Below, one piece after another: positions 44,382 to 56,675 of a stretch of DNA of 56,675 bases; the stretch's first letter is position 1, and each line of letters opens with the position of its first letter. Position numbers and translations under genes: made by a program. The stretch lies in the NCBI GenBank assembly GCA_027320425.1, contig DAHVLJ010000012.1, positions 1-56,675 of the forward strand, written 5' to 3'. A model generated the notes under the pieces. That model was not told where the DNA came from and searched no databases. It worked only from the letters and a program-made list of their open reading frames with translations. The DNA is from Nitrososphaerota archaeon (GTDB lineage Archaea; Thermoproteota; Nitrososphaeria; Nitrososphaerales; Gagatemarchaeaceae).

Positions 44382-44479
44382 GGGGCCGTAGTGTAGCTTG
44401 GTCCAGCATACCAGTGTGAATAAGATTCACGGTGAGCCTGGGGCGCTGGCGATCGTGGGTTCAAATCCCACCGGCCCCA
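44382..44479 (+). tRNA. trnP: tRNA-Pro(GGG) with a non-canonical intron
   Basis: Acceptor GGGGCCG (44382-44388) pairs with CGGCCCC (44472-44478); discriminator A, no CCA encoded. T-arm GTGGG-TTCAAAT-CCCAC. The anticodon stem is broken by a 22-base insertion (about 44415-44436) between tRNA positions 30 and 31; removing it gives stem CCAGC/GCTGG and loop CTGGGGC with anticodon GGG (44440-44442) and the G37 usual in tRNA-Pro. The insertion folds on itself as GTGAA-TAAGA-TTCAC. TATA-like CTTTAAACC lies about 30 bases upstream. Confidence 0.9.
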
Positions 44480-49899: not shown

Positions 49900-50418
49900 T
49901 TGGAAAGAGAGGTTCAGGACGGCCTCAAGCAGGCGATGAGGATCTACCCGCAGGGGGTCACGGTCGTAACAACAGACTCCCACGGACCGAAGGGGCTGAC
50001 GGTGAGCTCGTTCACCAGCGTGTCGCTGGACCCCCCACTGGTGCTCGTCTCGATAGCGAAGGGGTCCGCGATGCACGACGTGCTCAGGAACGCCGAGGCA
50101 TACGCCGTAAACTTCCTTGCAGACGACCAGAAGTCGGTCTCTGACAGGTTTGCAGGGAGGACTCAGGCCACGGAGAGATTCGAGGGGATCAAGTTCGCGA
50201 AGGGGACCACGGGGTCTCCCGTTATCGCGGGGGCCAGAGCCGCTCTGGAGTGCAGGGCATGGGCAGCGTACGACGGGGGGGACCACTCGATACTCGTTGG
50301 GAATGTCGTCTCCGCCAAGACGATGAACTCGAAGAAACCGCTGGTCTACTACGCCCAGCAGTACACGACGACAGAGCAGATGGAGTACCCGGCGCCGCCT
50401 TCAGACATCGTCTGGTAG
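49900..50418 (+). CDS. hpaC: Flavin reductase (HpaC-like)
   Basis: 172 residues from TTG; TATA-like GTTTTAAACG lies about 40 bases upstream. Split-barrel flavin reductase family: RIYPQGVTVVTTDSHG, GLTVSSFTSVSLDPPLV and RNAEAYAVNFLADDQ are diagnostic. It supplies reduced FAD/FMN to the HpaB monooxygenase, whose gene lies about 2.5 kb away and convergent. Named by family and context. Confidence 0.85.
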   Translation: MEREVQDGLKQAMRIYPQGVTVVTTDSHGPKGLTVSSFTSVSLDPPLVLVSIAKGSAMHDVLRNAEAYAVNFLADDQKSVSDRFAGRTQATERFEGIKFAKGTTGSPVIAGARAALECRAWAAYDGGDHSILVGNVVSAKTMNSKKPLVYYAQQYTTTEQMEYPAPPSDIVW

Positions 50419-51426
50419 CTACTTGGCCGCCAGTAGGTAGTCGGGCCTGTCCTTGATCTTGGGCGAGGCGACAGAGGCGAACCTTCCGGTCCGAGGGGAT
50501 TTCACGCGCATCGCCTCGTTGAACCAGCTCGCCGGCGTGGGCGCCCCCCAGAAAGTCTGCCTTTGGGGGTCGTTGAGCTTCCATCTTATGGGGACCCAGT
50601 CTGGGTCCGCGCTGATGTAGTCTCCAGTGTAGAGCTCGACCCTGTTCCCGTCAGGGTCCCTTAGGTAGAGGAAGAAGGCGTTGGAGACACCATGGCGGCC
50701 TGGGCCTCTCTCCATGCTCTTGAGGTACCCGCTGGAAGCAAGGAGGTCAGCCGCGTCCATTATCGAGCTTCTGTCGGAGACTGTGAACCCTGCATGATGG
50801 ACCCGCGGGCCCTTCCCCGTGGTCAGCGCGATGTCGTGGCACGTGTGCTTCCTCCGTAGCCATGCTGCCCAGAGCGCAGGCTTGCTCCCTTCCGTCTCGG
50901 TGACCTCGGTGCACCCGAACCCGAGTGAGTCAACGTACCATCTGAACGCCGAGGCGGCGTCTGGGAGCATTATGTTGAAGTGGTCCAGCCGCATCACCTT
51001 GGCGCCTCTGTAGTTCTGGTACTTCTGGAGCATCCACTCCTCCTTCTCCATCTTCGTGTAGAACTCGACCGGGAAGCCGAACTGGTCCTCGACCAAGAGA
51101 GCCTTCCCCTGGCCCTTCTCTTCGCCGGGCTCGACCCAGCGGGTTGTCCCTCCGTGGGCCTTCGCAACGGCCTCGATCGCCTTCAGGCCCTTCTCCTCAG
51201 CTACCCTGAACGCGAAATGTCCCACTCCTGGCGAGGCCGATTTTGTGAGGACAAGTGAGTGGTGCGTCCTGTCCTCGAGCCCCCTCAGATACAGATGCGA
51301 CCTATCTGCCTCGGTCACTACGAACCCGAGGGTGTCGACATAGAACCTCTTCGCTTCGTCCATGTCTGTGACGAGGAACTCTATGTGTCCCGCCTTGACT
51401 ATGTCGAACCCCCGTTCCAACGCCAT
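50419..51426 (-). CDS. hpaD: Homoprotocatechuate 2,3-dioxygenase (HpaD, VOC type)
   Basis: 335 residues, two VOC modules. Metal ligands in the second module are H149 (RLDHFNIML), a His of VHHAGF (210/211) and E264 (NRVELYTGD); H197 (TCHDIAL) fits the acid-base His. The C-terminal DPQRQTFWGAPTPASW is typical of 3,4-dihydroxyphenylacetate dioxygenases such as HPCD/MndD. It cleaves the ring between carbons 2 and 3. It follows hpaB with a one-base gap. Confidence 0.92.
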   Translation of the reverse strand: MALERGFDIVKAGHIEFLVTDMDEAKRFYVDTLGFVVTEADRSHLYLRGLEDRTHHSLVLTKSASPGVGHFAFRVAEEKGLKAIEAVAKAHGGTTRWVEPGEEKGQGKALLVEDQFGFPVEFYTKMEKEEWMLQKYQNYRGAKVMRLDHFNIMLPDAASAFRWYVDSLGFGCTEVTETEGSKPALWAAWLRRKHTCHDIALTTGKGPRVHHAGFTVSDRSSIMDAADLLASSGYLKSMERGPGRHGVSNAFFLYLRDPDGNRVELYTGDYISADPDWVPIRWKLNDPQRQTFWGAPTPASWFNEAMRVKSPRTGRFASVASPKIKDRPDYLLAAK

Positions 51427-51427
51427 C

Positions 51428-52873
51428 TCAGTCCTTGCGGTGCAGGAGCTCCTTCACCCTCTCCTTGTAGGGCTCTTTGTTGTACCAGGAGTAATAGGCG
51501 CTGGCCATCCTTACCGGGTCCCCGAAGAAGAATCGCTCATACAGGTCCTGCCTCCCGCCGAAAGAACTCCCTGCCGCATCCCACGCGAGCTTGAACAGTC
51601 CGACCCGCTCCTCTCCTCCCAGCAGCTTCGCCTGATAGTACTTCTCGACGTCTGCCCTGGCCGGGGAGTTCAATATCTCCTCAGGCGGGATGGCCATCAG
51701 CCCGCTCGCGCCTATCTGCTTGATAGCGGCAGAGAACGAAGGTGCGACCCGCGGCCAGAGGTTTCTCGCCGAGTTGATTGGGACGTAGTCGGGGGTCAGG
51801 ATTCCCCATCTGTTCACCTTCGCGTTCGCTTCGCTCGCGGCGAGAAACGCCTTCATCGTCTCCGCGGTGAGGAGTACGTCGGCGATCTTCTCCTGCACCT
51901 GTGGGAACTGGTCAGCGCCGATTGTCTCCGCTATCATGGTCAGCACCCCCGCTATGAACTCGGCCTTGACGCACTCCCTTACTATCGCCTGGTGCGCCAT
52001 GAACACGACGGCGTCAGTCGCTTCGTTGACCCTGTTGGCCTTCTCTGGGTCTTCCAGGATGAAGACCCTCTCCCAAGGGACGACGACATCGTCGAAGACC
52101 ACCACCGCGTCTTGCTCGTCGAACCTCGAAGCGAGCGGGTGGTCGTAACCGGAGTCGTCCGAGAACGACTCTCTGCAGATGAACTTCAGCCCCTTTGCGC
52201 TTACCGGGAGCGAGAACGCGATGGAGTACGGTATGTCGTCCTGCCCGGACCTGATGACCGTCGACGGGAACACCATTATCTCGTCTGCGATGGGGAGCGT
52301 AGCGAGCATCCGTGCGCCGCGGATCGTCACCCCCTCAGAGGACTTCTCCACGACCCTGGCTGCGATGAACGGGTCCGTCTGCTTCGAGGGTCCGACGCTC
52401 CTGTTGGTCTGGGGGTTGATCAGTGTGTGGGTGAGGACCAGGTCGTTCTCTCTGACGTACTCATAGTAGGACTGGACGTTGCCGGCGTAGTCTCTCCCTT
52501 CATGGCCAAAGAACTCGTTGGCGGCTGCCATCGCCATGAGCGAGCTGTTCAGGTAGTCAGCCGTCCTTCCCATGAACCCCCCTGAGTATTCGGCCCACGC
52601 TCTCATCATCCGCGTCCTCTGTACGAGCTCCTCGCGGGTCTTGGGCTGGATGTAACTCGCCCCGACGCGGTCTCCGCTCTTCGGAGACGCATATGTCATG
52701 AACTCCATCCCTGGCTTCAGCTGCATCTCGTAGAGCGCGGCGATCGACCTCGCCACGCCCTTGAAGGCGGGATGGCCCGATACCGAGCCCGTTAGCTTCG
52801 TGTCTCCGTACCAGATCTCCCGGGGGGTCGAGTCGAGCCTCGCGAGGAAGTCCTTCCCGCTCCTTGCCCCCAT
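51428..52873 (-). CDS. hpaB: 4-Hydroxyphenylacetate 3-monooxygenase, oxygenase component
   Basis: 481 residues collinear with Thermus HpaB: GRTADYLNSSLMAMAAA, ADEIMVFPST, VPWERVFILEDPE, QIGASGLMAIP, and the end DLYERFFFGDPVRMAS with YNKEPYKERV. The enzyme uses reduced flavin to hydroxylate 4-hydroxyphenylacetate to homoprotocatechuate, HpaD's substrate. The 4-hydroxybutyryl-CoA dehydratase relatives share the fold but have iron-sulfur cysteines not seen here. First gene of a two-gene operon; a truncated second copy lies at 54654-55112. Confidence 0.94.
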   Translation of the reverse strand: MGARSGKDFLARLDSTPREIWYGDTKLTGSVSGHPAFKGVARSIAALYEMQLKPGMEFMTYASPKSGDRVGASYIQPKTREELVQRTRMMRAWAEYSGGFMGRTADYLNSSLMAMAAANEFFGHEGRDYAGNVQSYYEYVRENDLVLTHTLINPQTNRSVGPSKQTDPFIAARVVEKSSEGVTIRGARMLATLPIADEIMVFPSTVIRSGQDDIPYSIAFSLPVSAKGLKFICRESFSDDSGYDHPLASRFDEQDAVVVFDDVVVPWERVFILEDPEKANRVNEATDAVVFMAHQAIVRECVKAEFIAGVLTMIAETIGADQFPQVQEKIADVLLTAETMKAFLAASEANAKVNRWGILTPDYVPINSARNLWPRVAPSFSAAIKQIGASGLMAIPPEEILNSPARADVEKYYQAKLLGGEERVGLFKLAWDAAGSSFGGRQDLYERFFFGDPVRMASAYYSWYNKEPYKERVKELLHRKD

Positions 52874-52970
52874 GTTTCTACTCCCCGCGTCTCCTGCTTA
52901 CGATAATTGAATCTTTGCGGAGCCGTCGTTAGATTAAATCGGCAACCCGCGGAGCCCGGGCGCTGCTCGA
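52874..52970. promoter_or_regulatory. Divergent promoter of hpaB and the transporter gene
   Basis: ATTGAATCTTTGCGG at about 52904-52918 recurs almost unchanged (ATTGAATCTTTACGG, about 55142-55156) before the hpaB remnant, so it is likely a conserved control element; the ATTCAATTAT read leftward could be the hpaB TATA box. TTAGATTAAATCGG at about 52930-52943 would serve the rightward gene. Confidence 0.5.
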
Positions 52971-53612
52971 ATGGTCCAGGTGTTCTCGCTTCTCGTCGCC
53001 GCTGCCGCGGTAGGCGTGCTCCACATGTCCGCGCCCGACCACTGGGTCACTCTGTGCATCTTGGGCCAGAGGTCGTCGTGGTCAAGAGCCAGGACGCTCT
53101 GGTTTGGGGCCGCGACCGCGGTGGGCCATGTCACGCTTTCGCTTGCGCTTGGGCTGCTGATCGTGGCGGCGGGCATGTACTTCTCGAGGACCCTTTCCGA
53201 CCTTCTCACGGTAGGGACGGGGGCGGTCATGGTCGTCGGTGGTCTCATCTATGGGTTCAGGGTCCTGTTGAGAGACGAACCTGAAGACTATGAGCGGGAG
53301 GCGTCCGAGGAAGCCGCGAAGCTCAAGGCCTCCGGAAGGGGTTTGGGTTTCTTCGCCGTCCTTGGAGGCGCCCTTTCGCCTGACCTGAGCGTACTTCCTG
53401 TCTTCCTTCTGGCCTCGCAGGTCTCAGTGGGGATGGTGGCAGACACCGCTCTGACCTTTGCGACCGCTTCAGTGTTCACGCTCCTCCTGCTCGTCCTCGC
53501 CGGCTCCGAAGGTTTGGCGAAGCTGCTCTCGAAGGCCCCGGCGAAGTACAACGACTCCCTGGTAGGCTTCGTCATCGCTGCGGTGGGCGCATACATACTG
53601 CTCTTCGGTTAG
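52971..53612 (+). CDS. NicO/RcnA-like membrane transporter
   Basis: 213 residues with six hydrophobic helices. VLHMSAPDHWVTL in helix 1 and AVGHVTLSLALG in helix 3 fit the HxxxPDH and GH patterns of nickel/cobalt or related heavy-metal exporters. A charged loop (DEPEDYEREASEEAAKL) lies mid-protein. The substrate is unproven. It occupies the slot that an MFS gene fills in the second copy of this locus. Confidence 0.65.
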   Translation: MVQVFSLLVAAAAVGVLHMSAPDHWVTLCILGQRSSWSRARTLWFGAATAVGHVTLSLALGLLIVAAGMYFSRTLSDLLTVGTGAVMVVGGLIYGFRVLLRDEPEDYEREASEEAAKLKASGRGLGFFAVLGGALSPDLSVLPVFLLASQVSVGMVADTALTFATASVFTLLLLVLAGSEGLAKLLSKAPAKYNDSLVGFVIAAVGAYILLFG

Positions 53613-53616
53613 AAGA

Positions 53617-54516
53617 CTAGCGCACCTTCACCGGGTTGGCGAGGGTGCCGATCCCCTCGACTTCCAGGGAGAGCACGCCGTCCTTCATCGGGAGGGTGTA
53701 TTCTGTCGGGTCAAGGTCTCCCAGGGCCGACTTCGTCCAACCGACGCTGCCGCATGAGACCACGTCTCCCGGTTCGAGCGTAAGGAACCCTGACAGATAC
53801 GACGCGATCTTCGCCGGTCCGAAAAGGTACTCTGACGTCGAACCCTCCTGCACCATGAAGCCGTCGAACTTCGTCGTCATCCTGAGGTTTGAGACGTCCA
53901 GCTCGTCGGGAGTCACAAGCCACGGCCCCATCGGGCAGAACGTGTCGTGGTTCTTAGAGCGGAAGAGGGGTCCGCGCATCAACGACTTCCTGATCGCTCC
54001 TGTGCTCCTGTCTCTCCTGTACGCCTCGTATGCGTCGTCCCTCGAATCCGAGGGCGCGGTCACGTCGTTCAGCACGGTGTATCCAGCGATGCCATCGGAA
54101 GCCTCGCGCTCGGAAGCGCTCGTCAGCTTCTTCCCCACGATCGCGGCCAGCTCGACCTCGGGCCTCACACCGGTCCTAGGGGCAAGTATCTCGTCCCCTG
54201 GTCCTATCACGGCGCTTGGGACCTTCATGTCGACGCGTGGCCTGTCCAGATGGACGTCTTCTCCTCCGAGCATGGCCTGAGTGTTGACTATGGTCGCGAG
54301 GATCTTTCCCGGCCTGGGGACGGGCGCTAGGAGGCCCACGGAAGAAACGTCGTATGATGCGCCCTCCAACCGAACGTCAGTGAGATCGACCTCCTGGCGC
54401 AAGAGCTCTGAGATGCTCTCAGCCGCTTTCACCGTATGGACGGCCTCGCCCTTCACCACCCCGACCCTCGGCCCACGATGACCCTCGCCCCGCGGAGTGA
54501 ACACGCAGAAACGCAA
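53617..54516 (-). CDS. Fumarylacetoacetate hydrolase-family enzyme (HpaG-like)
   Basis: 299 residues from TTG. FAH-fold active site: RPEVELAAIVGK for metal-binding Glu, GYTVLNDVTA, KNHDTFCPMGPWLVT and the end GDVVSCGSVGWT. In the homoprotocatechuate pathway HpaG decarboxylates and isomerises the ring-cleavage product; fumarylpyruvate-type hydrolase activity is an alternative. A TATA-like GGTAAAAAGGG lies 25-30 bases upstream. The 5' end with its promoter is duplicated at about 56453-56578. Confidence 0.85.
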   Translation of the reverse strand: MRFCVFTPRGEGHRGPRVGVVKGEAVHTVKAAESISELLRQEVDLTDVRLEGASYDVSSVGLLAPVPRPGKILATIVNTQAMLGGEDVHLDRPRVDMKVPSAVIGPGDEILAPRTGVRPEVELAAIVGKKLTSASEREASDGIAGYTVLNDVTAPSDSRDDAYEAYRRDRSTGAIRKSLMRGPLFRSKNHDTFCPMGPWLVTPDELDVSNLRMTTKFDGFMVQEGSTSEYLFGPAKIASYLSGFLTLEPGDVVSCGSVGWTKSALGDLDPTEYTLPMKDGVLSLEVEGIGTLANPVKVR

Positions 54517-54532
54517 CGGGAGGTGCGAGCTG

Positions 54533-54552
54533 CCAACCCTTTTTACCCTTTG
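54533..54552. promoter_or_regulatory. Shared promoter core, first copy (FAH / X remnant)
   Basis: CCAACCCTTTTTACCCTTTG at this site is nearly the same as CCAACCTTTTTACCTTTG at 56561-56578. It lies between FAH on the left and gene X on the right in both copies, at the distance expected for a two-way TATA element. Confidence 0.6.
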
Positions 54553-54571
54553 GCATCTGCCGGGTCCAACG

Positions 54572-54676
54572 TCGCTCGACCACCCTCTCGTTCCGGGGGA
54601 CGCATCCGCCGTGGAGAAGGGGCCATGGCGCTACGGCGCTGGCAATCCTGGGTTCAAAATCCCAGCGGCCCTATAG
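54572..54676 (+). pseudogene. Remnant of gene X (first copy)
   Basis: The frame LDHPLVPGDASAVEKGPWRYGAG matches the start of the gene at 56596 (LDHPLAPGRTSAIEEGPWHYGAD). Here the start codon has been lost (CGTCG in place of GGTG) and a TAG stop follows at 54674-54676, 33 codons on. The family is unknown. It abuts the tail of the hpaB remnant on the opposite strand, probably the join of a deletion. Confidence 0.7.
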
Positions 54677-55112
54677 ATACTCCTCGCTGAGAATCGATGC
54701 ATCCGCCATCTTCGCCTGGTAAAACCTGTCGAAGTCCCTTCCGCTTCCTGAAGAAGTCCTTGCCGCCATAGCCACGGTCGAGCTGTTGAGGCTGTCTGCG
54801 GTCCTCCCCGTCTTGTCGTCGGAGTAGCTCGCCCAAGCCATCATCGTGGCCGTCCGCTTGGCCAGGTCGTCCGCGGTACTGGGATGCATGAAGCTCGTCC
54901 CGACCGGCTCGTGGGGCGCAGGGGGCTCGTATATCATGACCTCCTTCAGCTCGGGCCGCAGCTTCATGTCGTAGAGTGCGGCGATGGACATGGCCATCCC
55001 TTGTACGCCGGATGACTGGATGTCTCGCCGGTGATCTTCTGGCTGCCGTACCACGCTTCGCGCGGGTCGTGTCGAGCCTCTGGAGGAACTGCTTCCCGCT
55101 CTTGGCTCCCAT
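54654..55112 (-). pseudogene. hpaB remnant (second copy)
   Basis: From the ATG at 55112 it reads MGAKSGKQFLQRLDTTR, matching intact hpaB from residue 1. Frame changes occur near codon 17 (about 55061) and near codon 37 (about 55000); the following frame continues MSIAALYDMKLRPE, KRTATMMAWASYS and GRTADSLNSSTVAMAA. After about residue 115 the middle is deleted and RFYQAKM, equivalent to KYYQAKL near residue 412 of the intact protein, comes next before a stop. Clearly a non-functional duplicate. Confidence 0.88.
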
Positions 55113-55198
55113 CCCTTCAAGTCTCTACCGGCGGCGTTCTGATTGAATCTTTACGGCTCACCGGTGGAACCCTTAAGCGCATAACATCGGAGCGCCTT

Positions 55199-56452
55199 TT
55201 GAAACGCCGATTGTCGAACACAGCCCCTGACGCCCAGGCGGCTCCCTCGCCTCGGTCCGGGGGAAGGACGCTCCTGATACTCTCGCTCTACCAGATGCTC
55301 TCCAACAACCGTTCGAGCCTCTTCACCGTGTTCTTCGTCCTCTACGTCGTCGAGAAGGACGGGGTCTCGGTGGCCGCCGCGCTCACCGCATTCTCTGCGG
55401 CATACGTGGCCTCGAGCCTGACGGGGCCCTTTGCCGGGAGGCTCTCCGACCGGATGGGGCGGAGGCGACTGCTCCTAATCGTTTCAGAGGCGGCTTCTCT
55501 CCCCTTCTTCGTCCTCATCCCGTTCCTCGGGGGCTTCATCGCCATCAGCGCCTTCTTCCTGCTGGGAGAAACCGTCCTGTCTATAGGGAACACCGCCCTT
55601 GCGGCCTTTGTCGCGGACATCACGACGTCCGGGGAGCGCGGACGGGGGTACGGCTTCCTCAGCCAGGTGGGGGCCCTGGGCTCCATAGTCGGGGTGGTCG
55701 CTGCCGGGCTGGTCTCCGAGTACATCAGCATCGACGCCATCTTCTACCTCGTAGGCTTCTTCATCACGGCAGACCTCTTGATGCTGGTCTTCGCCCTCCC
55801 GGAGAGCACGGTGAAGCCCTCCCTGTCCCGCCGCCCCCTCAGGGAGATGAAGGGGGTGATTGTCTTCTCCTTCGCCACCTCCATCAGGGCCATTGGGACG
55901 GGGGCGGTCACGGCCTTCATCGGGGCCTATGCTTACTTCTTGGGCGCCAACTACCTCGAGGTCAGCCTGATAGCGGTCGCCGGGATGGGGACTACCGCCC
56001 TCTTGGCGACGAAGCTCGGGAGCAAGGTCGACGCCATGGGGGAGATACGCGGCTACATCTATGGGACCGTGACCGTGGGGGTCGCGCTGGTTATCTACGT
56101 CGCTTCGGGCGCGTGGCCGGAGCTCGTTCCCGCGCGAATCATATACTCCATGGGTTTCGCGCTCCTGAGCCCCGCGATGCTCAGCTGGGTGAGCAAGATC
56201 GCTCCGGAAGGGCGGACGGCCGAGTACCTCGGCGTCTTCTCGTTGATCAACTCCACGCTCTGGAGCTTCGGCCCCCTCCCCGGAGGCATTATCCAGGGGT
56301 GGCTGGGAAACACCGGCCTGTTCGCCTTCGCCATAGTCACCACCGCCGCCTCCGTCGTAGCCGTGTATGCCCTGTATTGGCGATCGGGGCCCGTCCTCAG
56401 CCCCAGGCCAGACGTCGGGGGCGGTGGCGACTCGGTTATTGAGGCTCCCTGA
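55199..56452 (+). CDS. MFS transporter in the hpa duplication
   Basis: About 417 residues from the TTG at 55199 (LKRRLSNTAPDAQ); CTTAAGCGCATA about 25 bases upstream is a fair TATA box, and an earlier ATG frame runs through the hpaB remnant. Twelve hydrophobic helices; loop 2-3 motif GRLSDRMGRRRLLL. By position next to hpaB it may import 4-hydroxyphenylacetate or a related aromatic acid, which is inference. Confidence 0.82.
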   Translation: MKRRLSNTAPDAQAAPSPRSGGRTLLILSLYQMLSNNRSSLFTVFFVLYVVEKDGVSVAAALTAFSAAYVASSLTGPFAGRLSDRMGRRRLLLIVSEAASLPFFVLIPFLGGFIAISAFFLLGETVLSIGNTALAAFVADITTSGERGRGYGFLSQVGALGSIVGVVAAGLVSEYISIDAIFYLVGFFITADLLMLVFALPESTVKPSLSRRPLREMKGVIVFSFATSIRAIGTGAVTAFIGAYAYFLGANYLEVSLIAVAGMGTTALLATKLGSKVDAMGEIRGYIYGTVTVGVALVIYVASGAWPELVPARIIYSMGFALLSPAMLSWVSKIAPEGRTAEYLGVFSLINSTLWSFGPLPGGIIQGWLGNTGLFAFAIVTTAASVVAVYALYWRSGPVLSPRPDVGGGGDSVIEAP

Positions 56453-56545
56453 GTCCTCGTTCTCGAAGACCGTCCCATCCGCCATCAGCCCTGCCCTCTG
56501 GCTCCGACTGCCCTCCGTGGGGAGAGAGAATGTACAGAACTTCAT
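56453..56545 (-). pseudogene. FAH-family gene remnant (second copy)
   Basis: The ATG at 56545 starts MKFCTFSLPTEGSRSQRAGLMADG, matching MRFCVFTPRGEGHRGPRVGVVKGE of the intact FAH protein; after about 28 residues similarity ends against the MFS gene end. The TATA-like AGGTAAAAAGG upstream is kept. Confidence 0.8.
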
Positions 56546-56560
56546 GGGCCCTCGCGCCGA

Positions 56561-56578
56561 CCAACCTTTTTACCTTTG
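56561..56578. promoter_or_regulatory. Shared promoter core, second copy (FAH remnant / X)
   Basis: CCAACCTTTTTACCTTTG lies about 25 bases before the GTG of gene X and a similar distance before the FAH remnant on the other strand, as in the first copy at 54533-54552. Confidence 0.6.
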
Positions 56579-56595
56579 ACTACCGCAGCATCCAG

Positions 56596-56675
56596 GTGCT
56601 CGACCATCCCCTCGCCCCTGGTCGTACTTCCGCCATAGAAGAGGGCCCTTGGCACTACGGCGCCGACTACATCGC
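56596..56675 (+). CDS. Start of unknown gene X (cut by window edge)
   Basis: A frame from the GTG at 56596 (reading LDHPLAPGRTSAIEEGPWHYGADYI) is open to the right edge. The same protein start is found as a remnant at 54572-54676, and the promoter is shared with the FAH remnant. No family recognised from 26 residues; its place suggests a ring-cleavage pathway step such as an isomerase, hydratase, dehydrogenase or aldolase. Confidence 0.6.
   Translation, partial: MLDHPLAPGRTSAIEEGPWHYGADYI

Follow-up and report, generated by a model that had tools for sequence, protein, structure and literature searches.

A probable foreign second module and a chimeric border gene in the hpa cluster of a Nitrososphaerota archaeon

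Xenologous gene displacement in situ and the mosaic operon are known concepts. The locus reported here is likewise a mosaic cluster of mixed origin with a chimeric border gene, and a sibling genome (G012) is a clean example. However, the population that we analyzed added a foreign block in tandem instead of replacing its own. Two described systems also come close, as far as the relevant parts of PMC5361080 describe them. Homology-facilitated illegitimate recombination (HFIR) occurs in transformable bacteria (Acinetobacter, Streptococcus pneumoniae, and Pseudomonas stutzeri). There, one end of the incoming DNA is joined by homology and the other by a few shared bases, and foreign genes are added beside resident ones; our locus shares the first and last of these features, and may share the second. 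Our case differs in that it is read from a genomic fossil in a genus of uncultivated archaea, with the homologous side formed between species whose genes are about 65 to 80% alike. In the T6SS clusters of Vibrio cholerae, orphan immunity-gene arrays arise by modular displacement. As in our locus, a relative's homologous block is inserted beside the resident one, orphaned remnants are left, and clean replacement (here in G012) is found alongside insertion. However, our locus is a metabolic transporter slot and not a set of effector/immunity genes, and it is the incoming block that decays, not the resident.

We analyzed a stretch of 56,675 nucleotides, which we call the window. To our knowledge, these archaea have not been cultivated. 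The window carries a cluster that resembles the hpa clusters for 4-hydroxyphenylacetate (homoprotocatechuate meta-cleavage): HpaB and HpaD exceed their curated cut-offs, and an HpaC-like reductase and an FAH-family gene adjoin. It differs in that the HpaC, HpaE, and HpaG models stay below cut-off (HpaG-C, 99.4 against 276.4; HpaE, 440.7 against 638.35), which makes them family matches below equivalog level, and in that it includes an ADC-family gene, here called X. The archaeon probably degrades 4-hydroxyphenylacetate.

An earlier note had reported that the order hpaB(-), transporter(+), FAH(-), X(+) occurs twice, and had read this as a tandem duplication followed by reciprocal decay. The order and its coordinates were confirmed. 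Ahead of copy 1 lie an HpaC-like flavin reductase gene (49900..50418, plus strand; PF01613, E 2.2e-45; best HpaC model NF042921, 142.9 bits, below the cut-off of 200), 81% identical to G001 and 65% to G029, and hpaD for 3,4-dihydroxyphenylacetate 2,3-dioxygenase (50419..51426, minus strand; TIGR02295, 394.1 bits, cut-off 321.4), with 85% and 79% identity to the same genomes. Copy 1 itself begins with an intact hpaB (51428..52873, minus strand; TIGR02309, 590 bits, cut-off 480.2; 84% to G001, 77% to G029). Its transporter slot holds a gene for a NicO-like membrane protein (52971..53612, plus strand; 58% to G001, 65% to G023). The protein matched no family in Pfam or NCBIfam, and its HX4DH motif (HMSAPDH) presumably points to NicO. 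The FAH-family gene (HpaG-like; 53617..54516, minus strand; PF01557, E 3.5e-43; 74% to G001) is also intact and matched HpaG models, all below cut-off. X, as the note had said, is broken: only its first ~23 codons are present (54572..54643, plus strand), and TCG replaces the GTG start found in copy 2. After these codons it runs into a tRNA 3' fragment, which the note had overlooked. The alignment of this X gave 78% to G001 (117 columns), whereas the other ten relatives shown gave 65 to 69%, except for 57% in G014. In the 3' flank, which is represented in the near-identical genome G019, the ALDH gene after X is 91% identical to G001. Copy 1 and its flanks on both sides follow G001 in sequence and are the resident genes.

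Copy 2 is in a very different state. Its hpaB is a pseudogene of donor origin (54672..55112, minus strand) with 88.1% identity to G029, 86.1% to G012, and 70.9% to copy 1. It consists of a 3' piece (about 54699-54744) fused to a 5' piece (54744-55112), with ~840 bp deleted at an 8-bp repeat, and it has also lost its 3' end and acquired two one-base frameshifts. A donor-type hpaB/MFS intergenic region (55113..55198) leads into an intact MFS transporter gene, also of donor origin (55199..56452, plus strand; PF07690, E 8.2e-33), which is 93% identical to G029 and 96% to G012 over 262 residues. FAH is reduced to a remnant (56451..56548, minus strand) that lacks 768 bp of the G029 sequence, flanked in G029 by 13-bp direct repeats; its aligned part is 89% identical to G029 and 62% to copy 1. 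X follows with its first 26 codons (56596..56675, plus strand), a donor-like front cut off where the contig ends at 56675. The claim that the promoter elements are conserved held: motif AAAGATTCAAT upstream of hpaB and core CTTTTTACC between FAH and X are present in both copies, and in copy 2 the stretches that contain them sit upstream of MFS and X. Among 19 compared upstream regions, AAAGATTCAAT was exact in 7 (both copies, G006, G012, G022, G023, and G029), and near-exact in G001, G008, G015, and G024; the remaining 8 lacked it. The damage is complementary and leaves one working set, with full-length X available only through contig C2 of G019.

The two transporter genes represent alternative alleles at a single slot. 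We searched 30 genomes of the same genus, besides the window's own, and 21 had an hpaB match. The hpaB-FAH slot held MFS in 9, a NicO-like gene in 3, both modules in 1 (G019), and neither in 5, and 3 were ambiguous. In a maximum-likelihood tree of 21 hpaB 5' sequences, copy 1 grouped with G001 (88) and copy 2 with G029 plus G012 (98). The tree omits G004, G009, G010, and G019. The pseudogene was compared for identity with 17 sequences, without eight loci dropped by a motif filter (G007, G003, G014, G002, G025, G010a, G034, and G044), seven of which are in the tree. Furthermore, dS between the copy-2 MFS gene and G029 or G012 was 0.24 or 0.20, whereas the corresponding values for copy-1 hpaB were 0.88 and 1.06. 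These comparisons indicate that copy 2 did not arise by duplication of copy 1 but is a xenologous block that came from a relative of G029 (MAG LSA3.bin14). We also searched for a carrier with the MFS sequence. Seven of 221 candidate stretches in genome contigs were relatives, none of the 28 pattern-matching stretches in viral contigs was, and none of 134 matching plasmid records covered 80% of the query, all being below 60% identity.

The right border of the block lies in X. The earlier note took copy-2 X to be seemingly intact; within the window this amounts to 26 codons, and a full gene is seen only across G019, where the final 127 bases of contig C1 recur without a mismatch at the end of contig C2. 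Read through this overlap, X is a complete ORF of 248 codons (Pfam ADC) with a foreign front and a resident rear. Donor-type markers made up 14/15 before the break and 31/94 after it, which 0 of 2000 permutations reached; with another marker set they were 18/24 and 34/122 (0 of 1000). Control permutations gave 295/1000 for G022 X and 664/1000 for G023 X. The chimeric X is thus the homologous-recombination junction characteristic of HFIR. Its breakpoint is not sharp, at C2 position 110|113 (codon 21-22) or ORF position 150|151 (codon 50-51) depending on the marker set; the agreement between the two junctions is therefore no closer than about 90 bp. The C1-C2 join rests on the exact contig overlap and not on reads, and another successor is possible; the C2 stretch is absent from the window's own bin. 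The contigs of the window and of G019 stop at an identical base and may not be independent assemblies.

The left border is a junction of resident X with the tRNA 3' part (54635..54673, plus strand) at GGCGC (54635-54639), which belongs to both sequences as microhomology; subsequent deletions may have altered the junction. Resident X was cut by the join itself and did not disappear through the gradual decay of a duplicate. The tRNA piece is a weak Infernal match (19.2 bits, gathering 29). Its T stem, CTGGG/CCCAG, is of donor-clade type, as in G018, G021, G022, and G024, whereas the resident tRNA at 44382-44479 has GTGGG/CCCAC. Compared with donor-clade tRNAs, it shows 3 differences (one substitution, one additional A, and the 3'-end base), and compared with the resident tRNA, 5. 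Allowing up to 3 mismatches, a search of its own genome found only the piece itself. Across the genus the form was matched in 7 of 31 genomes, exactly in G018, G021, G022, and G024, with 2 mismatches in G000 and G019, and with 3 in G002. G018 and G021 have no hpaB match, and no full-length copy of the donor-type tRNA was found in G029. In G024 and G022, this tRNA lies about 9 kb and 20 kb from hpaB, which calls for either an extensive subsequent deletion or a template switch.

We regard the foreign origin of the second module and the chimeric nature of X as highly probable. For the mechanism, a single insertion event seems somewhat favored. DNA from a relative of G029 with an MFS-type hpa cluster would have entered an ancestor with a NicO-type cluster. 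At one end, homologous recombination inside X would have installed a foreign promoter and the first ~22 to 50 codons in front of the resident remainder. At the other end, the join would have lacked real homology and used GGCGC(TG), common to codons 22-24 of resident X and the donor tRNA gene. Such borders would be the expected trace of HFIR, or of one-ended break repair closed by microhomology. Redundant imported parts (the tRNA-to-hpaB stretch, most of hpaB, and most of FAH) would then have been lost, with two deletions at short direct repeats, while MFS and the front of X were retained. As an outcome, the lineage would have kept its hpaBCD and FAH, gained MFS beside the NicO-like gene, and swapped the promoter and front of X. 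That there was one event, and how large the original insert was, we infer.

The same borders could have come about if a foreign circle had integrated through one crossover within X (Campbell type) and the stretch between the resulting left hybrid X and the tRNA had then been deleted. This would account for the resident and donor X fronts on either side of the insert and for the breaks in X at the two borders lying so close to each other within the gene. However, the donor molecule must have been circular and the deletion must by chance have begun at the crossover, and no 3' part of donor X is left. Moreover, the annotated genes beside the block include no integrase, replication, or conjugation gene, and MFS was on no viral contig. 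We consider this course rather unlikely.

The remaining alternatives are far less credible. Slots of either type are found throughout the genus, as they would be if its ancestor had duplicated the module (NicO type and MFS type) and differential loss had left both in the window lineage alone. But dS from the copy-2 MFS to G022 or G024 was 0.54-0.57, against 0.24 to G029, which places this gene within the MFS-type clade. This refutes an ancient duplication, which would also leave the donor-type tRNA piece and the chimeric X unexplained; both modules were seen in none of the 21 other hpaB genomes of the genus except G019 (3 ambiguous). We therefore judge it very improbable.

Archaeal att sites often start near the anticodon loop, and the tRNA piece at 54635-54673 begins there, which might suggest that a mobile element integrated site-specifically at a tRNA gene. 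This was rejected as scarcely plausible: the other border was formed by homologous crossover within X and not at a tRNA, the insert is 10 kb from the resident tRNA, and no integrase is among the genes between them. An assembly chimera of two co-occurring species might be suspected from the low depth of the metagenome bins (5x for NODE_16) and from the contig end inside X. Yet the X/tRNA/pseudogene junction shares only GGCGC, far less than an assembly overlap, and it recurs in two bins that differ at 18 of 56,675 bases. The block had also already decayed, so it is not DNA of a living donor. We therefore reject this explanation too, as highly unlikely.

The weakest reading is that of the earlier note: a recent tandem duplication within the lineage would fit the identical gene order and orientation in tandem and the complementary damage, but the copies are homologous at a distance (64-74% alike by blastn: 67%/442 nt, 64%/202 nt, and 74%/50 nt), copy 2 belongs to another clade (88% to G029 versus 71% to copy 1) with a tree forcing the copies as sisters being rejected (delta lnL 52; AU p 1.9e-6), X is a donor/resident chimera, and G029 and G012 agree with G022 and G024 in the hpaB-MFS stretch, which speaks against their having obtained it from the window lineage, so that we give the duplication almost no credence.

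Within the imported block, decay and constraint contrast. Changes by codon position were 11/12/5 in the hpaB pseudogene and 14/3/25 in MFS (Fisher p 0.0006), and dN/dS of MFS, estimated pairwise by one method, was 0.14 to G029 and 0.09 to G012. The last 16,745 bases of the window differ from G019 at 10 positions, 4 of them inside the 441-base pseudogene. Neutral decay of all imported parts except MFS and the front of X is the best reading.

G012 seems to have acquired this same block through clean replacement. At its hpaB break (303|315), G029-like markers were 68/71 versus 37/214, and at its X break (328|333), 59/64 versus 9/89; each was reached by 0 of 1000 permutations, and the G022 controls gave 766/1000 and 295/1000. 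G012 thus has the two sharp borders of xenologous displacement by double crossover, across a presumed join of contigs C64 and C47.

The available portions of the literature that we searched (HFIR in archaea, aromatics in Thaumarchaeota, Gagatemarchaeaceae, Haloferax recombination and MMEJ, xenologs, and mosaic operons) do not describe this locus, and the accessible text of a Gagatemarchaeaceae paper (PMC10640624) has 0 occurrences of "aromatic" and "hydroxyphenyl." The process is of a known sort and is here unusually legible. Paired similar modules are readily taken for a duplication; in this case, relatives reveal a different species as the source of the second. Preserved in this fossil is evidence that is normally lost: both borders, a chimeric gene, a scrap of donor-type tRNA, and a kept transporter against neutral remnants. 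Together with G012, it offers a testable case of recombination between species and transporter exchange in archaea. Tentatively, the hpaB-FAH slot may be a hot spot of cassette exchange in the genus, with transporter blocks passing between species with genes ~65-80% alike in sequence. Homology within hpaB and X would then anchor the exchange, which would have been clean in G012 and half-illegitimate in the window population. If true, this would mean efficient uptake and divergence-tolerant recombination in uncultivated archaea, perhaps natural transformation.

The hpa cluster in the window (49.9-54.5 kb) encodes an HpaC-like reductase, HpaD, HpaB (51428-52873, minus strand), a NicO-like membrane protein (52971-53612, plus strand), an FAH-family protein (53617-54516, minus strand), and the front of a gene that we call X (from 54572, plus strand). 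HpaB and HpaD scored above the cut-offs of curated profile models, and matches to the HpaC, HpaG and, in the near-identical genome G019, HpaE models fell below theirs. In relatives, X encodes a ~248-residue protein assigned to acetoacetate decarboxylase family PF06314. From 54.67 kb to the contig end, the genes hpaB, transporter, FAH, and X recur in that order. This second copy has hpaB and FAH as remnants (~54672-55112 and 56451-56548, both minus strand), an intact MFS transporter gene (55199-56452, plus strand), and a second X front (from 56596, plus strand). The module does occur twice, as the earlier note had claimed, but the copy-2 X that it called seemingly intact has 26 codons in the window and then meets the contig end. 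The copy-1 X fragment has TCG at the start-codon position (54572-54574), and its front is not translatable the way that of copy 2 is. The window is a single contig in full, from a bin of 907 kb that is 54% complete; the sampling sites were presumably acid mine drainage, going by sample names.

We compared both copies with the hpa neighborhoods of same-genus relatives. The PPDK-to-hpaB genes preceding the second copy were nearest to those of G001 among the genomes compared (identities of 85% for hpaD, 84% for hpaB, and 81% for HpaC), and copy-1 HpaB was only 77-78% identical to HpaB of G029 and G012. For the copy-2 MFS protein, identity was 93% with its G029 counterpart and, over 262 residues, 96% with the one in G012. 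DNA of the hpaB remnant was 88.1% identical to G029, 86.1% to G012, and 81.8% to G022, against 70.9% for copy 1; the FAH remnant matched G029 at 89% and copy 1 at 62%. For copy-1 hpaB, dS was 0.88 to G029 and 1.06 to G012. An ancient duplication does not fit, because the copy-2 MFS gene is nearer to G029 (dS of 0.24; 0.20 to G012) than to G022 or G024 (0.54-0.57). In a tree of 21 hpaB 5' sequences, copy 1 grouped with G001 (support of 88) and copy 2 with G029 and G012 (98). The tandem duplication proposed earlier is rejected by the same sequences, in that forcing the copies to be sisters cost 52 log units (AU P = 1.9e-6).

Aligned over all 56,675 bases of the window, G019 (YF1.bin121) differed at 18 positions; its contig C1 ends at the identical base. 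The reverse-complemented end of its contig C2 opens with an exact match to the last 127 bases of C1. We read this as an assembly-graph k-mer overlap, and therefore C1 probably continues into C2. Across this join, X is a 248-codon open frame followed by an aldehyde dehydrogenase gene, 91% identical to that of G001 and in the same gene order. X carried donor-type markers (the presumed donor being a relative of G029) at 14/15 informative sites before C2 position 110 and 31/94 after it (0/2000 permutations). Another marker set gave a best break at ORF position 150 (18/24 versus 34/122; 0/1000 permutations). The X genes of G022 and G023, used as controls, had no break (295/1000 and 664/1000 permutations). 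The two best breaks place the crossover between codons 21 and 51. Taken jointly, a foreign origin of copy 2 and a chimeric X are very likely. In G029 itself, the X frame (L053 from 6143) is 416 aa long, and past residue ~227 it has an unrelated tail, as a frameshift close to its 3' end would produce.

At the left border, the copy-1 X, nearest to G001, breaks off at codon 23-24; at GGCGC the sequence changes over to the 3' portion of a tRNA gene. The T stem of this piece (CTGGG/CCCAG) matches a tRNA in G018, G021, G022, and G024, and not the resident tRNA (44382-44479). In the donor-clade genomes G022 and G024, the tRNA is on the same side of hpaB in matching orientation, ~20 and ~9 kb away. 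The resident gene (plus strand) is 98 bases long with an intron-like insert; ARAGORN called it tRNA-Ile(AAT), which is doubtful in an archaeon. Full-length counterparts (88-94%) were found in 13 of 29 other genus genomes (G019 aside).

Compared with the G029 sequence, FAH in the block is missing 768 bp that lie between two 13-bp repeats, and hpaB is missing ~840 bp at an 8-bp repeat. By codon position, the hpaB remnant had 11/12/5 changes on the window branch and MFS had 14/3/25 (Fisher P = 0.0006), as would be expected for a dead remnant and a live gene. Over the last 16,745 bases, 4 of 10 differences from G019 were inside the 441-base hpaB remnant, two of them adjacent. The block retains MFS and the X front, each with its upstream region, which would explain why "promoters" look conserved in both copies.

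Over most of the neighborhood, G012 (WH2.bin77) shared 92-95% identity with G015. However, from hpaB ~310 through MFS and FAH to X ~330, it was G029-like (mostly 92-97%). This tract spans two contigs, whose join is inferred. Its borders were sharp (0/1000 permutations at each; G022 controls, 766/1000 and 295/1000). PPDK of G012 is interrupted by 1236 bp following residue 463 (L044:3318-4553), as in G006 (L049:17499-18734) and G004 (L050:18425-19660); it is uninterrupted in the window, G001, and G015, the last a close relative of G012. The two inserts scanned (G012 and G006) have a LAGLIDADG domain, and that of G006 a sub-threshold intein-splicing match. The insert is probably an intein. G010, on contigs C88 (L039) and C93 (L040), has a full hpaB (69%), a second one truncated at a contig end (77%), and an hpaB fragment at C88:808-1081. 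This may be a further example of multiple or decayed hpa copies, or it may reflect contamination of the bin (4%).

In the simplest account, a long donor fragment, from tRNA to X, would have entered, and the bulk of the interval would have been lost afterwards. No carrier of the block was found in the viral or plasmid collections. Circular integration followed by deletion is unlikely. We lean toward a single event, joined by homology on one side and by microhomology on the other. Haloferax volcanii is reported to use microhomology-mediated end joining (PMC7521656). Among published patterns, the nearest that we found concerns V. cholerae, where orphan immunity genes accumulate; homology-facilitated illegitimate recombination is proposed there, and clean replacement is considered commoner (PMC5361080). 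The sharply bordered tract in G012 indicates that a block of the same kind entered there by clean replacement, whereas in the window population it was an addition.
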